Shown in pieces: positions 11,072-33,540 of a stretch of DNA of 39,449 nucleotides. This DNA comes from Oscillospiraceae bacterium. Lineage in GTDB: Bacteria > Bacillota > Clostridia > Oscillospirales > Ruminococcaceae. Location: assembly GCA_031253495.1 (NCBI GenBank), contig JAIRWC010000036.1:1-39449 (forward strand). The letters are read 5' to 3'. Below the pieces are notes generated by a model. The model made no database searches and had not been told where the DNA came from. It worked only from the letters and a program-made list of their open reading frames with translations. A program made the translations under genes and the position numbers. How positions within the stretch are numbered: the first letter of the stretch is position 1; every line of letters begins with the position of its first letter.

Positions 11072-11111
11072 AACGGGTCGCCCGAAGGCGGCCCGTTTTT
11101 ATTTTTTAAGC
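11072..11111 (+). terminator. Rho-independent terminator after MCP gene 2
   Basis: The hairpin ACGGGTCGCC CGAA GGCGGCCCGT is followed by TTTTATTTTTT. The descending arm and T-tract (AAGCGGCCCGTTTTTATTTTTT) are repeated directly at 11107-11129, a small local duplication. Confidence 0.9.
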
Positions 11112-11151
11112 GGCCCGTTTTTATTTTTTGTATTTTTATATATTCAAACAC

Positions 11152-24840: not shown

Positions 24841-24878
24841 GGCGGCTGAAAAAACATCCCGACGTTTTTTCAGCCGCC
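24841..24878 (-). terminator. Terminator hairpin after the CoA-transferase gene
   Basis: A perfect 15-bp stem GGCGGCTGAAAAAAC / GTTTTTTCAGCCGCC with an 8-base loop, 16 bases after the CoA-transferase stop. The A and T runs inside the stem and the flanking T-rich sequence suit termination on the minus strand. Confidence 0.85.
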
Positions 24879-24894
24879 CGCGTAACGTATTTTT

Positions 24895-26427
24895 TTAAGG
24901 ACCCGCCGATATAAGTTCAAAATCCAGCCGCGCTTTAATCTGCCTGTTCGCGTCTATCCCGCCGTATACCTCTTTGAGCGCCAGCCCGCTTTCCGTAAGC
25001 TCGAACACGCACCGTTCGGTTACGTATAACACCCTTTGCCCGCGCTTGACGGCGTTAGCCCCCGAAAAGCTGATTGCGGCGATTTCTTTCTTGAATTTGG
25101 GGACGCTCCCTTCCCGCTTTACGGAGACGGCGCCGTTTTCCCTGACGGCGACCAGCCCCTTCGTGTTGAAGCTCATGCAAAACACGATTGTCTTCGTCGC
25201 GAACGTGATGTCGGCGAACCCGCCTATCCCCGAAAAGCCGCCCTCCAGCTTATGGGCGTTGACGTTCCCTTTCATATCGGCTTCCAGCCCGCCCAAAAAG
25301 CATATGTCCAGCCCGCCGCCGTCGTAAAAGTCGAACTGCGTCGCCATATCGCAAATCATATCGGCGCCGATGGTGGCGCCGAAAGCCACGCCCGGGGCGG
25401 GCAGCCCGCCTATCCCCCCCGCTTCCACCGTGGTTACGATATCTTTGAGAATCCCCATTTTCGAGGCGTATTTCCCCACGGATTCCGGTATGCCTATCCC
25501 TATGTTGACGATGTGCCCCGGTTTCAGCTCGCGGGCGGCGCGTTCCCCGATAATGTCGGCGGTCTCGTCCTTTTCGCCGCTCCCGGCGGCGTTTTTGCGC
25601 TTGGTGGTCGACAGCTTGTTCACATAATAGTCCATGTGAGAGGCGGGAACGTGGACGTCCCCCGAAAGGGCGGGGTTATACGCCGACGACGAAGGCTTGT
25701 GTTCGCAGACGACGACGAAATCCACCAAAATCCCCGGGATAATCACGTTGCGCGGTCTGGAGAACTCGTGGCTTACCCGTTCGACCTGAACGATTACCTT
25801 GCCGCCGTTGCGCTTCGTCGCCTGCGCCAGCGAAAGCGCGTCGACCGTAAGGTATTCCCTCTCGAACGAAATGTTCCCGTTGGGGTCGGCCGTGGTGCCT
25901 TTGATTAAGGCTATGTCAATCTTAGGGGTTTTGAAGAGCAGGTATTCCCCGCCCTCGATTTCCACAACGCGAACCTGCTCTTTTTTCGACACGCGGTTAA
26001 GCGCGCAGGTACCCGTGCGCGGGTCGGCGAAAATGCCTATCCCCACCTCGCTCAAAATCCATTCCCTGCCCGAAGCGGCGGCGCGGACGGCGTGGGAAAG
26101 CATCCCCAAAGGGAGGTTATAGGCTTCTATCCCGTCGGAAAGCGCCGCCTCGACGGCGGCGGGCATACTGCCGTAATGCCCCGCGACGATTTCCGCGACG
26201 GCCCCCGCCTTAATGTACCTGTCGGCGCAACGGCCTTCGTCCCACACGCCGAACCCGGCGGGGCAGAACAGCCGCAGCCCTTTCGGGGAGGCGGTTTCGG
26301 CGAACCGCTCGTATATCGCGTCGTGGAGCTCTTCGGGATTGGACAAGGCGAGGAACGAGTTTATCGCGACGCGGGCGTTATCGGGGATAACGCCCGCGGC
26401 TTCCCTCGGGGTAACGATTTTAAACAT
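24895..26427 (-). CDS. Acyl-CoA:acetate/3-ketoacid CoA-transferase (YdiF-like, family I)
   Basis: 510 residues with alpha and beta halves fused on one chain, the normal family layout. The C-terminal half carries VNIGIGIPESVG and TTVEAGGIGG, where the glutamate is the expected thioester-forming residue. LPAPGVAFGA, FDFYDGGGLDICFLGG and GNVNAHKLEGGFSGIGGF follow. The enzyme swaps CoA between short-chain acids such as acetate, butyrate, propionate or lactate in fermentation; which acid cannot be told. The ATG at 26427 has AAGGAA nine bases upstream. Its 5' region is a striking tandem array. It follows phoU on the same strand and ends at a strong terminator. Confidence 0.92.
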   Translation of the reverse strand: MFKIVTPREAAGVIPDNARVAINSFLALSNPEELHDAIYERFAETASPKGLRLFCPAGFGVWDEGRCADRYIKAGAVAEIVAGHYGSMPAAVEAALSDGIEAYNLPLGMLSHAVRAAASGREWILSEVGIGIFADPRTGTCALNRVSKKEQVRVVEIEGGEYLLFKTPKIDIALIKGTTADPNGNISFEREYLTVDALSLAQATKRNGGKVIVQVERVSHEFSRPRNVIIPGILVDFVVVCEHKPSSSAYNPALSGDVHVPASHMDYYVNKLSTTKRKNAAGSGEKDETADIIGERAARELKPGHIVNIGIGIPESVGKYASKMGILKDIVTTVEAGGIGGLPAPGVAFGATIGADMICDMATQFDFYDGGGLDICFLGGLEADMKGNVNAHKLEGGFSGIGGFADITFATKTIVFCMSFNTKGLVAVRENGAVSVKREGSVPKFKKEIAAISFSGANAVKRGQRVLYVTERCVFELTESGLALKEVYGGIDANRQIKARLDFELISAGP

Positions 26428-26561
26428 GGCGACGATTCCTTAAAACACGGCGATGTTCCCTTAAAACACGGCGATGTTCCCTTAAAACACGGCGGCGGTT
26501 CCCTTAAAACACGGCGGCGGTTCCCTTAAAACACGGCGGCGGTTCCTTAAAACACGGCGAA
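26421..26561 (-). repeat. Tandem array of ribosome-binding-site/start/stop units
   Basis: Between phoU and the CoA-transferase the minus strand is a run of 21- or 22-bp units. Each contains GTG TTT TAA, then GGGAA or GGAA, then CATCGCC, CCGCCGCC or TCGTCGCC. Six GTG-TTT-TAA occurrences precede the true ATG-TTT-AAA start, which is the seventh member of the series. Each unit thus has a Shine-Dalgarno-like element, a start codon and an immediate stop. The array takes up the whole intergenic space. Confidence 0.92.
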
Positions 26562-27230
26562 TTATTGCGCCGGGTTCTTTTCCTTGGGGCGCTTATGCGC
26601 GCCCGTAATCGAAAAGACGACCCATTCCGCTATATTCGTGGCGTGGTCGCCTATACGCTCGAAATACTTCGCTATCATAATCAGGTCTATCGCCTGTTCC
26701 CCGTTACCGCCGTCCGTCCTGATTGAATCTATCAACTCGAACTTAACCTCGTTGAAAAGGTTGTCGACGACATCGTCGCTTTCGATAACGTCATAAGCCA
26801 GCTTCAAATCCTTCTTGACAAACGCGTCCACGCTCTCCGTAACCATCTTCACCGTGGCGGAAGCCATCTGCGTTATATGTTCGGGCGGCTTTATGTAAGG
26901 GGCGCCCGCCAGCATCAGCGTTATTTCCGAAATGTCGGCGGCTTGGTCGCCTATGCGTTCCATGTCGGTTATCATCTTGAGCGCGGAGGAAATAAGGCGC
27001 AGGTCGCTCGCCACGGGCTGCTGCTGCAACAACAGCTTCAAACAAAGGCGCTCTATCTCCTTTTCCATCTGGTCGACGTCCTCGTCGAACAGCACCGCCT
27101 TTTCGGCGAGGGCGACGTCCAATTTTTCCAAGGCCTTTACCGCCATGGCAATCGCCGTTTCCACCATTCCGCCCATTTCAGTCAGCATATCGTTGAGCAA
27201 AGTCAACTGCTGTTCAAATTTGTCCCTCAT
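26562..27230 (-). CDS. phoU: PhoU-like phosphate signalling protein
   Basis: 222 residues from the ATG at 27230 (GGGGGG nine bases upstream). The longer frame up to 27329 spans the promoter. Two PhoU three-helix domains each carry the metal-binding signature: ERIGDQAADISE and ERIGDHATNIAEW. PhoU normally damps the PhoR kinase and the PstSCAB phosphate transporter, but no pst or phoB/R genes are in the window. It is divergent from two DUF1538 membrane protein genes and followed by the CoA-transferase. A transporter-associated PhoU-like regulator for the DUF1538 proteins is conceivable but unproven. Confidence 0.9.
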   Translation of the reverse strand: MRDKFEQQLTLLNDMLTEMGGMVETAIAMAVKALEKLDVALAEKAVLFDEDVDQMEKEIERLCLKLLLQQQPVASDLRLISSALKMITDMERIGDQAADISEITLMLAGAPYIKPPEHITQMASATVKMVTESVDAFVKKDLKLAYDVIESDDVVDNLFNEVKFELIDSIRTDGGNGEQAIDLIMIAKYFERIGDHATNIAEWVVFSITGAHKRPKEKNPAQ

Positions 27231-27275
27231 TGTCCGAGCCCCCCCATAACGCCGCCCCCGCTCCGTCCGCGTTTT

Positions 27276-27304
27276 ATTATAGCATGGATTTATCCGGTTT
27301 TCAA
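27276..27304 (-). promoter_or_regulatory. Promoter of phoU
   Basis: TTGAAA (27299-27304), a 17-base spacer and consensus TATAAT (27276-27281) on the minus strand, 46 bases before the phoU ATG. Confidence 0.78.
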
Positions 27305-27347
27305 TCCCCCCCGGCGGCCCCGCCGGCAAAATATTATCTCAAAACAC

Positions 27348-27376
27348 TTGGAAAATTCACAAAAATATGATATAAT
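27348..27376 (+). promoter_or_regulatory. Promoter of the DUF1538 gene pair
   Basis: TTGGAA (27348-27353), a 17-base spacer and consensus TATAAT (27371-27376), 57 bases before the first DUF1538 start. It is back to back with the phoU promoter, 43 bases apart. Confidence 0.75.
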
Positions 27377-27432
27377 ACGGTGATGCGGGGCTGTTTGCCG
27401 CCGCGGCGCGAACCGAAGGAGACGGAACCGAC

Positions 27433-28179
27433 ATGAAAATCACGCATACGAAACACAATAAGTTTACGGACAGCCTTTCCGAAGTGGTGAAGTCCCTGAT
27501 TCCGATTATAGCGATAATCGTTTCGCTTATGGTCGTTTTGACCTTTTTCGTCGATTTGCCCCCCGAAAAGAAGATAGACACCGAGCTTTGGGCGTCGTTC
27601 ATAGGCGGGACGTTTATGGTGATTTTCGGGATGTCGCTGTTCTTGTTCGGCTCGGGCAGGTCTATGATGAACTTCGGCTCGAAGGCGGGGGGCTTCATCT
27701 TCAAGAAAGGGAAGCTGCCGCTGATTTTGTTCTTCGGGTTCTTTTTGGGGTATCTGGTTACCAACGCCGAACCCGACCTCTTGGTTTTGTCGCGGCAGGT
27801 GGCGGGGGTTAATCCCAACATACACAAAACCCTGCTGATTTCCGTTATCAGCGTGGGCACGGGTCTGTTCCTGTCAATCGCCCTTTTCAGAATAGTTTAT
27901 AAAATACATCTTGTGAAAGTTTTGTTCTTCTCTTATTCCGTCGTGTTCGCCACGGCGATAATCAGTATGTTCATAGCCCCCGATTTGGTCGCCCTCTCGT
28001 TTGACAGCAGCGGCGTAACCACCGGCCCCGTAACCGTGCCTTTCATACTGGCGTTCGCGGCGGGGGCGTCGCAAATGCTTAAGGGCGAACAGGAAAGCAA
28101 CCCCAGCTTCGGCATGGTCGGCATCACTTCCGTCGGCGCGATAATCGCCACTTTACTTTTGGGGGTGTATTTTAAATGA
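27433..28179 (+). CDS. DUF1538 integral membrane protein 1
   Basis: 248 residues with about seven hydrophobic helices. The DUF1538 hallmarks are visible: NAEPDLLVLSRQVAGV (about 117-132) and FDSSGVTTGPVTVPFILAF near the C-terminus. The family is a membrane protein of unknown function with symmetric half motifs, probably a transporter or channel subunit. The ATG at 27433 follows AAGGAGACGG. The stop overlaps the start of the second copy by ATGA, so the two are made together and perhaps form a heteromer. In other genomes PII-type regulators may sit next to this pair; none is seen here. Confidence 0.88.
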   Translation: MKITHTKHNKFTDSLSEVVKSLIPIIAIIVSLMVVLTFFVDLPPEKKIDTELWASFIGGTFMVIFGMSLFLFGSGRSMMNFGSKAGGFIFKKGKLPLILFFGFFLGYLVTNAEPDLLVLSRQVAGVNPNIHKTLLISVISVGTGLFLSIALFRIVYKIHLVKVLFFSYSVVFATAIISMFIAPDLVALSFDSSGVTTGPVTVPFILAFAAGASQMLKGEQESNPSFGMVGITSVGAIIATLLLGVYFK

Positions 28180-28916
28180 ATAAATTCGCGGGGATTATTT
28201 TCAGGGATTTTTTAGGCACCGTTTCCGACGTAACCATCGCCATCCTGCCGTTGCTTTCGATTTTCGTCGTCATGCAGATATTTTTCTTGAAGCTGAAAGC
28301 GCCCGAGGTAAAGAAAATCCTTTTGGGGTTCGTTTTAACCTACATAGGGCTTATCTTCCTCATTCAGGGAACCCATGTGGCGTTCATACCGGTCGGCGAA
28401 CGGGTGGGGGAAATCATCGGCTCGTCGCCGCACCGCTGGCTCGTTATCCCTATCGGCTTCGCGATGGGGTTCGTTTCGGCCTACGCGGAACCCGCCCTGC
28501 GCATATTAAGCAATCAGGTTGACGACGTTACCGCCCACAGCATAAACAAAAAGACGCTTATCCTGACCATTTCCACCGGCGTCGCGCTGTCAATCACGCT
28601 TTCGATGATAAGGCTGCTTTTGGACGTCCACGCCCTGTTTTTCCTAATCCCGGGGTACGCGCTGATTTTCTTCCTCTCAAGGTTTGTGGAACCCACGTTC
28701 GCGGCGGTCGCGTTCGATTCGGGCGGGGTGGTAATAGGCCCCATGTGCGTGTCGTTTATCCTGTCGTTCACGCTTAAGGTTTCCGACGTTTTGAACGGCG
28801 GCGACGCCATGGCGGGCTTCGGCATGATTGGCATGGTCGCCATGTCGCCGATTATCGCGGTCATGGTTTTGGGGTGCTATTATAACTTCAAACACAAGCG
28901 TTCGCGGGGGGGGTAA
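28176..28916 (+). CDS. DUF1538 integral membrane protein 2
   Basis: 246 residues, paralogous to the preceding gene, with about seven hydrophobic helices. Motifs are YAEPALRILSNQVDDV and FDSGGVVIGPMCVSFILSF. The two proteins have diverged outside these motifs, as expected for non-equivalent subunits of one complex. It ends nine bases before the convergent pnp stop, with no terminator in between. Confidence 0.88.
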   Translation: MNKFAGIIFRDFLGTVSDVTIAILPLLSIFVVMQIFFLKLKAPEVKKILLGFVLTYIGLIFLIQGTHVAFIPVGERVGEIIGSSPHRWLVIPIGFAMGFVSAYAEPALRILSNQVDDVTAHSINKKTLILTISTGVALSITLSMIRLLLDVHALFFLIPGYALIFFLSRFVEPTFAAVAFDSGGVVIGPMCVSFILSFTLKVSDVLNGGDAMAGFGMIGMVAMSPIIAVMVLGCYYNFKHKRSRGG

Positions 28917-31623: not shown

Positions 31624-33540
31624 TTACCGAACCAAGGGGGAATCCGCCGCGGCCACCTTCTTGAAATCCGCGCCGCCGCCGCTCCTGTAAACGTCGTAAG
31701 CCCGGTCTTCATAGACGAAATAAAACACGGCGGACACGCCCGCGACGACGCCGTCGGCGACATCGTCCCTCACCCTTTTCCTTTCCGTGCCGGAAACGGT
31801 GTAAAGCGTTCCCGACGAGCCCCAAAAATCGGCGAGGAAGAAAACGGTTCCGGAGCCGGAAACGCAAAGGCTGTACCCTGAGACGTCGCCGGATATCCTC
31901 GTCCCTTTGCCGTCATCGCCGCTTTTCTTGGAATAAAGGTCGCCGTCGTAGTTGACGTAATAAACGGTGTTCCCGTCTTTCGCGACGGCGAAGCCGTAAA
32001 CCTCTTTAGCGACGGTAACCGCCGTTTCGGGGTCGGTAACGGAAACCTTCTTCAATTCGTAGCCGTAGCTGACGTAATAAACCCATTTCCCGTCCTTCGT
32101 GATTGTCGGTTCGGCGCCGCCATACACGCTTTTGGCGACGCTCGTCCTTTCAAAGGCGCCGTCTATATAATTGATTTCGCCGCCGGACGAGAACGCCCTG
32201 TTCCTGAAATCGCCCAAGCCGTAAACGGATATGGACATCGAATTATAATAATCTTCCGGCTTCTTGCGCACGTACCCGATATCCGCCGAAACCAAGAATT
32301 TATCGACGGAATACTGGGCGATAAGAGACTTTTCGCCGCCGTTCGCGCTGACGTAGGATTTGCCGTCATAGTTGGTGAAAACGATTTGCGAATAATCGGC
32401 GTTCAGGTGGAAGTCGTTGTATGCCGATACCCTGTCGAGCCTGATTTCCTCGGCGGCGGGTCCTTTGCTCACATAAAGCGCCTCCCCGTTTTCGCGGGTT
32501 TTGATATGGTATATATATTTCGCGCCGTCGGCGACCGCGACGGGCTGTATGTTTACGCCCAAATCCTCGGCCTTGCCGTTTATGTTGATTTTGGTCTTAT
32601 ATCCGCCGTCCGAATAGTCCGCCTTGTACGCCACGGTTTTCCCGTCGGGGGAAATGACCGCGAAAAACCCGGCGGCGACGTAGTAGTAGTCGTAAGAGTC
32701 GGTGAAATAGGCGTTGTTGTCGAGCTTGTGGGTTTCACCGTTCCTCGCGTCGTAAAGCGAAAGGTCCGCCAAACGCGCGTTAGGGTCGAAATTGTTATAA
32801 AACGCCACCCCGTCGCCCGAATCCGCCAAGACAAAATTCACGACGTCGTCCGCGATTTTTTCAGGCTTGCCCTTTCCGGAGGCGTAATACAGCGTTCCGG
32901 CGGAATAGCCGTCGTCGCTGACGACAAAAGCCGCTTTCGTGTTGTCGAGGCTCTTCTTGAACTGTCCTTGCAGCACGCCGTCAAGCTCGTTCACGGAACC
33001 GTCGTTGTTGACGACGTAAACCTTTCCGTAACTGTAAAAGGCGGATATATCGCCGGCTTTGGACAAAACGGGGGCGCCCTTGGTAAGCGCGGGAACCACG
33101 AATATGGCTACGACGGCGATAATCGCGATCGGTACCAAAACCATAAGGGCTTTCACGGCGCCGGAAAGACCGGGGGCTTTCGCCGCGGGTGCCGCCGCGG
33201 GGAAAACGACCGTCGCGGGAATGGGAAACGGTTCCGGCGCGGGAATGGGCGCGGGAATGGGAAGCGGTTCCGGCGCGGGAATGGGCGCGGGAATGGGAAG
33301 CGGTTCCGGCGCGGGAATTGGTATAGGAAGCGGTTCCGGCGCGGGAATTGGTATAGGAAGCGGTTCCGGCGCGGGAATGGGTATAGGGAGCGGTTCCGGC
33401 GCGGGTATGGGTATGGGGAGCGGTTCCGGCGCGGGAACGGGTATGGGAATTGGCGCGGGGGCTTCGACCCGCGTTCCGCATTTGCCGCAGAATTTCGCGT
33501 TCTCCGCGTTTTCATGACCGCAAGAGCTACATTTCAGCAT
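31624..33540 (-). CDS. Zinc-ribbon membrane protein with Pro-rich repeats and propeller-like exterior domain
   Basis: 638 residues. A zinc ribbon (Cys4, Cys7, Cys18, Cys21) opens the protein. A Pro/Ala/Glu stalk (about 27-115) built of PAPEPLPIPI repeats, one membrane helix (about 129-151), and an outer domain of about 480 residues follow. The outer domain has recurring short strands such as GKTVAYKADYSDGGYKT and KDGKWVYYVSYGYELKKV, like DUF5050 or TolB-type beta propellers. No enzyme motif is seen. Cytoplasmic zinc ribbon plus outer propeller suggests an envelope sensor or scaffold. GGAGG lies seven bases before the ATG at 33540. Confidence 0.82.
   Translation of the reverse strand: MLKCSSCGHENAENAKFCGKCGTRVEAPAPIPIPVPAPEPLPIPIPAPEPLPIPIPAPEPLPIPIPAPEPLPIPIPAPEPLPIPAPIPAPEPLPIPAPIPAPEPFPIPATVVFPAAAPAAKAPGLSGAVKALMVLVPIAIIAVVAIFVVPALTKGAPVLSKAGDISAFYSYGKVYVVNNDGSVNELDGVLQGQFKKSLDNTKAAFVVSDDGYSAGTLYYASGKGKPEKIADDVVNFVLADSGDGVAFYNNFDPNARLADLSLYDARNGETHKLDNNAYFTDSYDYYYVAAGFFAVISPDGKTVAYKADYSDGGYKTKININGKAEDLGVNIQPVAVADGAKYIYHIKTRENGEALYVSKGPAAEEIRLDRVSAYNDFHLNADYSQIVFTNYDGKSYVSANGGEKSLIAQYSVDKFLVSADIGYVRKKPEDYYNSMSISVYGLGDFRNRAFSSGGEINYIDGAFERTSVAKSVYGGAEPTITKDGKWVYYVSYGYELKKVSVTDPETAVTVAKEVYGFAVAKDGNTVYYVNYDGDLYSKKSGDDGKGTRISGDVSGYSLCVSGSGTVFFLADFWGSSGTLYTVSGTERKRVRDDVADGVVAGVSAVFYFVYEDRAYDVYRSGGGADFKKVAAADSPLVR
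33230..33451. repeat. 30/36-bp tandem repeats coding a Pro-rich stalk
   Basis: Seven occurrences of GGTTCCGGCGCGGG (plus strand) spaced 36, 36, 30, 30, 30 and 30 bases. All spacings are multiples of three, so length variation keeps the membrane protein in frame while changing stalk length. Confidence 0.92.

Follow-up and report, generated by a model that had tools for sequence, protein, structure and literature searches.

The 134-nt gap between phoU and a CoA-transferase gene, on the minus strand of a gut bacterium chromosome, was found to consist almost entirely of a tandem array of six two-codon mini-ORFs. With a probability of roughly 60%, the array arose by recent replication slippage of the CoA-transferase leader, is unselected, and has at most a mild effect on translation. 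The features of the region are listed in Table 1; the whole stretch of DNA that was analyzed, 39,449 nt in length, is referred to as the window.

Table 1. Features of the phoU-CoA-transferase region, with positions in the window and predicted Shine-Dalgarno (SD) pairing energies
Feature	Positions	Strand	SD (kcal/mol)	Description and basis
Promoter-like site before phoU	27276..27304	minus		TTGAAA-17-TATAAT, extended -10; consensus scan
phoU	26562..27230	minus		222 aa; stop TAA 26562-26564; TIGR02135 phoU_full, Pfam PF01895
Tandem array	about 26428..26559	minus		6 mini-ORFs GTG TTT TAA, TAAGG overlapping each stop; repeat detection and start listing
Mini-ORF 1	26547..26555	minus	-1.7 (none usable)	GTG first base 26555
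Mini-ORF 2	26526..26534	minus	-6.1	GTG first base 26534
Mini-ORF 3	26504..26512	minus	-5.3	GTG first base 26512
Mini-ORF 4	26482..26490	minus	-5.3	GTG first base 26490
Mini-ORF 5	26461..26469	minus	-5.3	GTG first base 26469
Mini-ORF 6	26440..26448	minus	-5.3	GTG first base 26448; same frame as CoA-transferase
CoA-transferase	24895..26427	minus	-6.1 (TAAGG)	510 aa; begins M-F-K-I; PF01144
Terminator-like hairpin after CoA-transferase	24841..24878	minus		17 pairs; consensus scan

Layout of the array

All six units were made up of a start codon, one sense codon and a stop (GTG, then TTT, then TAA). A 15-nt core, CGCCGTGTTTTAAGG, was identical in all six, and differences were confined to a short linker. 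From the first GTG to the ATG of the CoA-transferase gene at 26427, the start-to-start distances were 21, 22, 22, 21, 21, and 21 nt, and the SD-to-SD spacings within the array were 21, 22, 22, 21, and 21 nt. The GTG of mini-ORF 1 lies 6 nt past the phoU stop, while the stop-to-start gaps within the array are 12-13 nt, which refines an earlier estimate that the next start would come within about a dozen bases of phoU or of any unit. Mini-ORF 6 ends in TAA, and thus its shared frame with the CoA-transferase gives no N-terminal extension.

Tandem Repeats Finder reported 6.5 copies at 26422-26559, and a 19-nt core was matched six times (at most 3 mismatches; four exact) compared with 0.06 matches expected from 100 shuffles. 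The six start-stop units described in the original prediction are therefore real, although some of its details required revision. The array proper is narrower than the 26421..26561 first assigned to it. The element proposed as SD-like, GGGAA, is not; pairing with the 16S tail is possible instead at TAAGG, which shares bases with the stop and stands 10-11 nt upstream of the next start. An SD had been assigned to every unit; units 2-6 have a candidate one (-5.3 to -6.1 kcal/mol), but unit 1 has none that is usable.

The flanking genes and their transcript

PhoU scored 217.6 bits against the TIGR02135 phoU_full model, a PhoU equivalog with a cut-off of 130.25. Its start, the ATG at 27230, was chosen by hand; the mechanical ORF opens further upstream, at 27329. 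Two adjacent DUF1538 genes are encoded on the plus strand (27433-28916), divergent from phoU.

The CoA-transferase was matched by phmmer to a sole solved relative in the PDB at E ≤ 1e-20, YdiF (2ahu, E 5.6e-96). It scored 264.8 bits against the NCBIfam model FadX, for which the cut-off is 750, and none of the five NCBIfam models listed for it was matched above its cut-off, so the earlier description of this protein as a fermentation enzyme is only a guess.

It is likely, judging from predicted signals, that phoU and the CoA-transferase gene are carried on one bicistronic transcript, because a promoter-like site precedes phoU, a terminator-like one follows the CoA-transferase gene, and the consensus scan gave no minus-strand promoter-like site inside the array. 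The same scan returned a weaker minus-strand promoter-like site within phoU and several chance-level hairpins. As far as seen, the neighbor pair appears not to be conserved: no phoU was found at E ≤ 1e-5 beside the CoA-transferase in 37 loci from relatives, several of which end close to the gene.

Derivation from the start of the CoA-transferase gene

Comparison of the unit core with the start region of the CoA-transferase gene gave 11 matches in 15 positions in register, the highest value among 243 sampled gene starts (mean 5.07; runner-up 10). This match, together with the adjacent tandem register, supports an origin of the array by copying of the start of this gene. The 37 relative loci bear on the same point. 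Four lacked the gene start, and six of the 33 that were kept duplicated another collection's copy, leaving 27 distinct loci. A start codon followed by a Phe codon was present in 26 of these 27, and eight began exactly ATGTTTAAAATC, as the CoA-transferase does here; the start codons were ATG, except for GTG in two and TTG in two. No comparable array was seen in the 220 nt upstream of the relatives' gene (the sequence of one locus, L042, is partly N there). Since relatives share the start-Phe beginning and not the array, the gene start is older than the array, and the array derives from it. The earlier proposal that the initiation region of the gene was duplicated repeatedly is thus supported, and the same two observations, the core match and a gene start common to relatives, argue for slippage. 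The array is probably recent.

The copies are head to tail and near-identical, as in ordinary slippage repeats, which likewise multiply local sequence at gene boundaries. The difference is that the segment copied here happens to include an SD and a start codon, which formally makes a mini-ORF of every copy. Slippage would have placed head-to-tail copies of the gene's leader and first codons, comprising the SD, the start and the Phe codon, in the gap. In the leader, TTT|TAAGG lies 21 nt upstream of ATGTTT|AAAATC. Duplication of the 21 nt between these junctions would give the closed unit ATG TTT TAA GG in one step, so that neither a further mutation nor selection would be required for the stop codon. 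The start would then have changed from ATG to GTG and the linker in a few places, after which the unit would have been amplified.

Two results count against slippage alone. Of 56,376 simulated neutral duplications at 243 real gene starts, just 1.6% gave one codon followed by a stop, 18% gave any ORF closed before the true start, and 30% gave an in-frame extension. Closure after a single codon is therefore mildly unusual under neutral duplication, unless the junction model above applies. Furthermore, the six cores are identical and all changes lie in the linker. The chance that all linker events would miss an 11-nt core was 0.13 to 0.03 for 3 to 5 events (0.06 for 4), and the chance that all would fall in any 7-nt arc was 0.27 to 0.04 (0.10 for 4), values that make a weak test of core constraint because the event count was estimated and the test was partly post hoc. 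None of the findings here demonstrates a selected function for the array.

Occurrence in this and other genomes

An exact 15-mer was found at 4 places in the genome, all at the array, and the five matches with 2 mismatches outside it were all single, which rules out a dispersed repeat family. Short direct repeats just upstream of starts, in intergenic gaps, are also known from the TAACTGA repeats of the Beggiatoaceae, but those are described as a single heptamer found genome-wide in 169 sets and with little SD character, whereas the array is at one locus and consists of SD-bearing start copies (PMC4679880).

No homologous array was found in the 70 other genomes of the genus, by scoring of at most 10 candidates per genome and by a pattern scan, and no close strain carrying the array was found among the genus genomes. 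The pattern, three TAAGG-spaced start-codon-stop units, was matched in 1 of 71 genus genomes, the same number as for the reversed pattern used as a control. In the family set (396 genomes), 2 were matched by the pattern and 5 by the control, and in the class set (393 genomes) the numbers were again 2 and 5. The genus, family, and class sets overlap, the forward counts include this genome each time, and the reversed counts are pattern matches, mostly single, rather than confirmed arrays. Several matches, which make a true array likely, were found in two genomes for the pattern (this one, designated G000, and G115) and likewise in two for the control (G003 and G449). A stricter two-unit pattern, TAAGGAGG, was matched in none of 295 order genomes, and its reverse in two. 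The pattern showed no excess over the reversed control, although counts this small could hide one, and to that extent the comparison weighs less for slippage. One of the class matches, G961, was rejected as an array of the same kind, as it was one non-repetitive match.

The array in G115 (locus L097, contig 138, 999-1092) has 3.8 copies of a 25-bp unit. It lies in the 3' flank of a 347-aa ORF whose own stop is the first TAA of the series, and it consists of the copied last codons and stop of that ORF, followed by an inverted repeat. There was no closed ORF of at least 80 aa behind it in about 1 kb, ORFs running off the end of the locus not being counted. Its units were copied from the 3' end of a gene, so it was ruled out as a start-derived array, and it indicates that slippage can make units of this form without any initiation role.

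As far as could be searched, then, the array is unique, and no natural tandem array of two-codon ORFs was recognized among the open-licence PMC papers listed by literature searches. The restriction to a single place in the genome, the failure to find it in the rest of the genus, the lack of excess over the reversed pattern, and the comparable units made from a copied gene end in G115 all favor slippage.

Other tandem repeats

Slippage arrays of other kinds were common, with several in the window and one at a distant relative, and this also favors slippage as the source of the start-stop units. Tandem Repeats Finder gave 99 rows for the genome in 379,705 bases, many of them overlapping and most in coding sequence. 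The listing of arrays across loci excluded 12 loci overlapping the array, as well as arrays inside any stop-to-stop frame of at least 100 codons.

In the window, a 22-bp duplication of an apparent terminator tail, GCGGCCCGTTTTTATTTTTTAA, at 11088-11129 is a slippage product at a gene boundary. A 15-bp repeat, GAGCCGAAACTAAAA, is present in 5.4 copies between two minus-strand ORFs (1143-1223). At 33217-33449 a minus-strand ORF (31624-33540) contains an in-frame repeat of the P-I-P-A-P-E-P-L-P-I type, after an N-terminal Cys-rich stretch. In the distant relative, locus L041, an unrelated array of 3.5 copies of 22 bp (2789-2867) ends about 133 nt before the homologous CoA-transferase gene, with two copies of a 50-bp repeat ahead of it (2659-2760); the exclusion of long frames is probably why the 22-bp array is absent from the listing across loci.

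Predicted initiation at the units and at the gene

The canonical anti-SD is ACCUCCUUA. It was used here because no 16S 3' end could be located in the assembly, and the choice was supported by stronger SDs at 243 gene starts (median -7.9 kcal/mol) than at internal control codons (median -5.0), from crude gene calls and with the best-scoring of at most four starts taken on both sides. On this scale the SDs of units 2-6 were weaker than the gene median, near the internal-control median, and outranked only 19 to 30% of the SDs of the sampled genes. The true start of the CoA-transferase itself reached only -6.1.

Opening the region around the CoA-transferase ATG was predicted to cost 3.3-3.6 kcal/mol, compared with a median of 8.2 for the 243 gene starts, which places it above 96% of sampled gene starts in accessibility and is a further argument for slippage. 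At the unit starts the cost was 8.0 to 12.6 kcal/mol (internal controls, median 11.0); five of the six were less accessible than the gene median, and the GTG of mini-ORF 1 was the least exposed. When the mini-ORFs were cut in silico from six to one, the cost at the true start ranged from 2.5 to 5.4, with no steady trend. According to these models, initiation at the units would be possible but mediocre, and a well-exposed site would be available at the gene's own start.

A structured leader, such as a riboswitch or attenuator, was ruled out: the array region folded worse than its shuffles (z +1.76), no Rfam family matched 26300-27450 at E ≤ 1, and the only hairpin at the array edge in the consensus scan was weak, with 5 pairs.

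Possible roles in translation

Neutral slippage had been offered as the null explanation, and it became the best-fitting reading. The proposed duplication of the gene start was retained, while no positive evidence was found here for the accompanying suggestions of a reinitiation relay, a ribosome trap or standby site, or copy-number control; the units are predicted to be mediocre, and the pattern is no commoner than its reverse. It is unlikely that this is a natural copy-number-variable reinitiation or loading array, in which unit number sets enzyme output or keeps phoU coupling.

In a reinitiation relay, ribosomes terminating on phoU would restart at the first GTG and hop from unit to unit to the ATG, coupling the two genes across 134 nt. 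The geometry fits, with 6 nt to the first GTG, hops of 12-13 nt, and an SD overlapping each stop, and the promoter-like and terminator-like sites suggest the single transcript that coupling would require. Post-termination ribosomes have been described as searching for an SD over more than 40 nt in either direction and restarting at the first start codon that bears an SD-like sequence (PMC5972666). The first GTG, however, lacks an SD and is less exposed than any other unit start, the accessible start of the CoA-transferase makes a relay unnecessary, and ribosome loss at each hop should lower output as unit number grows. With no conservation to indicate selection in addition, a relay is quite improbable.

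The units could instead act as a loading array, in which extra SD-GTG sites recruit ribosomes and raise initiation, or shield the mRNA from nuclease. A close parallel is a set of engineered leaders in Bacillus licheniformis, in which output grew with the number of RBS-GTG units, up to six, and reached 5-fold; the start codons were required, and SD-SD spacings of 15-21 nt worked (PMC9723656). The array resembles these leaders in its six tandem SD-GTG units and its spacing of 21-22 nt, of which the two 22s fall just outside that range, and this close resemblance in spacing, copy number, and GTG starts is itself a point against slippage. Each extra start in the engineered leaders, as reported there, gave its own longer protein band, but in the natural array all six are closed at TAA, so any gain would need reinitiation.

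Two-codon minigenes near gene starts can either raise or lower expression in cis, and those upstream of txe raise it (PMC8708949). The minigenes described in that source for txe (mg2), ycbK, and ler are like the array units in having a start, one sense codon, and a stop close upstream of a gene. The stop of txe mg2 is UAA, as the units have TAA, and the stop-to-start distance is 15 nt for txe compared with 12-13 nt here. The leader minigenes it describes have one or two units whose effects were tested, whereas the array has six near-identical tandem copies read from sequence alone. In the same report, deletion of the whole minigene fragment of axe-txe raised output to 30% above that of the native leader. 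SDs in units 2-6 that beat only 19 to 30% of those of genes, and starts of below-median accessibility in five of six units, also speak against loading, which is just as doubtful as a relay, if not more so.

That the mini-ORFs serve as a trap or decoy, intercepting ribosomes and lowering CoA-transferase output, possibly via peptidyl-tRNA drop-off, is very unlikely. According to work cited in PMC8708949, minigenes are most toxic through drop-off when they have two codons or end in UAA, and dipeptide ORFs that share an SD upstream of Bacillus subtilis ycbK interfere with that gene. Against this, initiation at the units is predicted to be mediocre, and they stand beside an accessible true start.

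An array of sites for an RNA- or DNA-binding protein such as CsrA is highly improbable: an A-N-GGA motif (AAGGA or AGGGA) is present in every unit and a CsrA homologue is encoded in the genome (G000:C5:37719-37868), but the motif is a short one with which any SD of the AAGGA type overlaps, the longer consensus and hairpin presentation of CsrA sites were not seen in the units, and the region folds worse than shuffles and has no Rfam match.

Under slippage, the preferred explanation, most translation of the CoA-transferase would begin at the gene's own SD and ATG, which are predicted to be well exposed. The mini-ORFs may be used occasionally, either by ribosomes that have just finished phoU or by newly loading ones, with effects that would be small and unselected.

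Implications

If the array is active, it would represent natural tandem two-codon ORFs that tune translation by copy number, and it would be a clean system in which to test ribosome hopping through stop-SD-start chains. A variable array would be a built-in evolvable rheostat and a natural counterpart of the engineered multi-RBS leaders. If the array is inert, slippage at a gene start can yield convincing start-stop arrays, which would call for caution in inferring regulatory logic from sequence.
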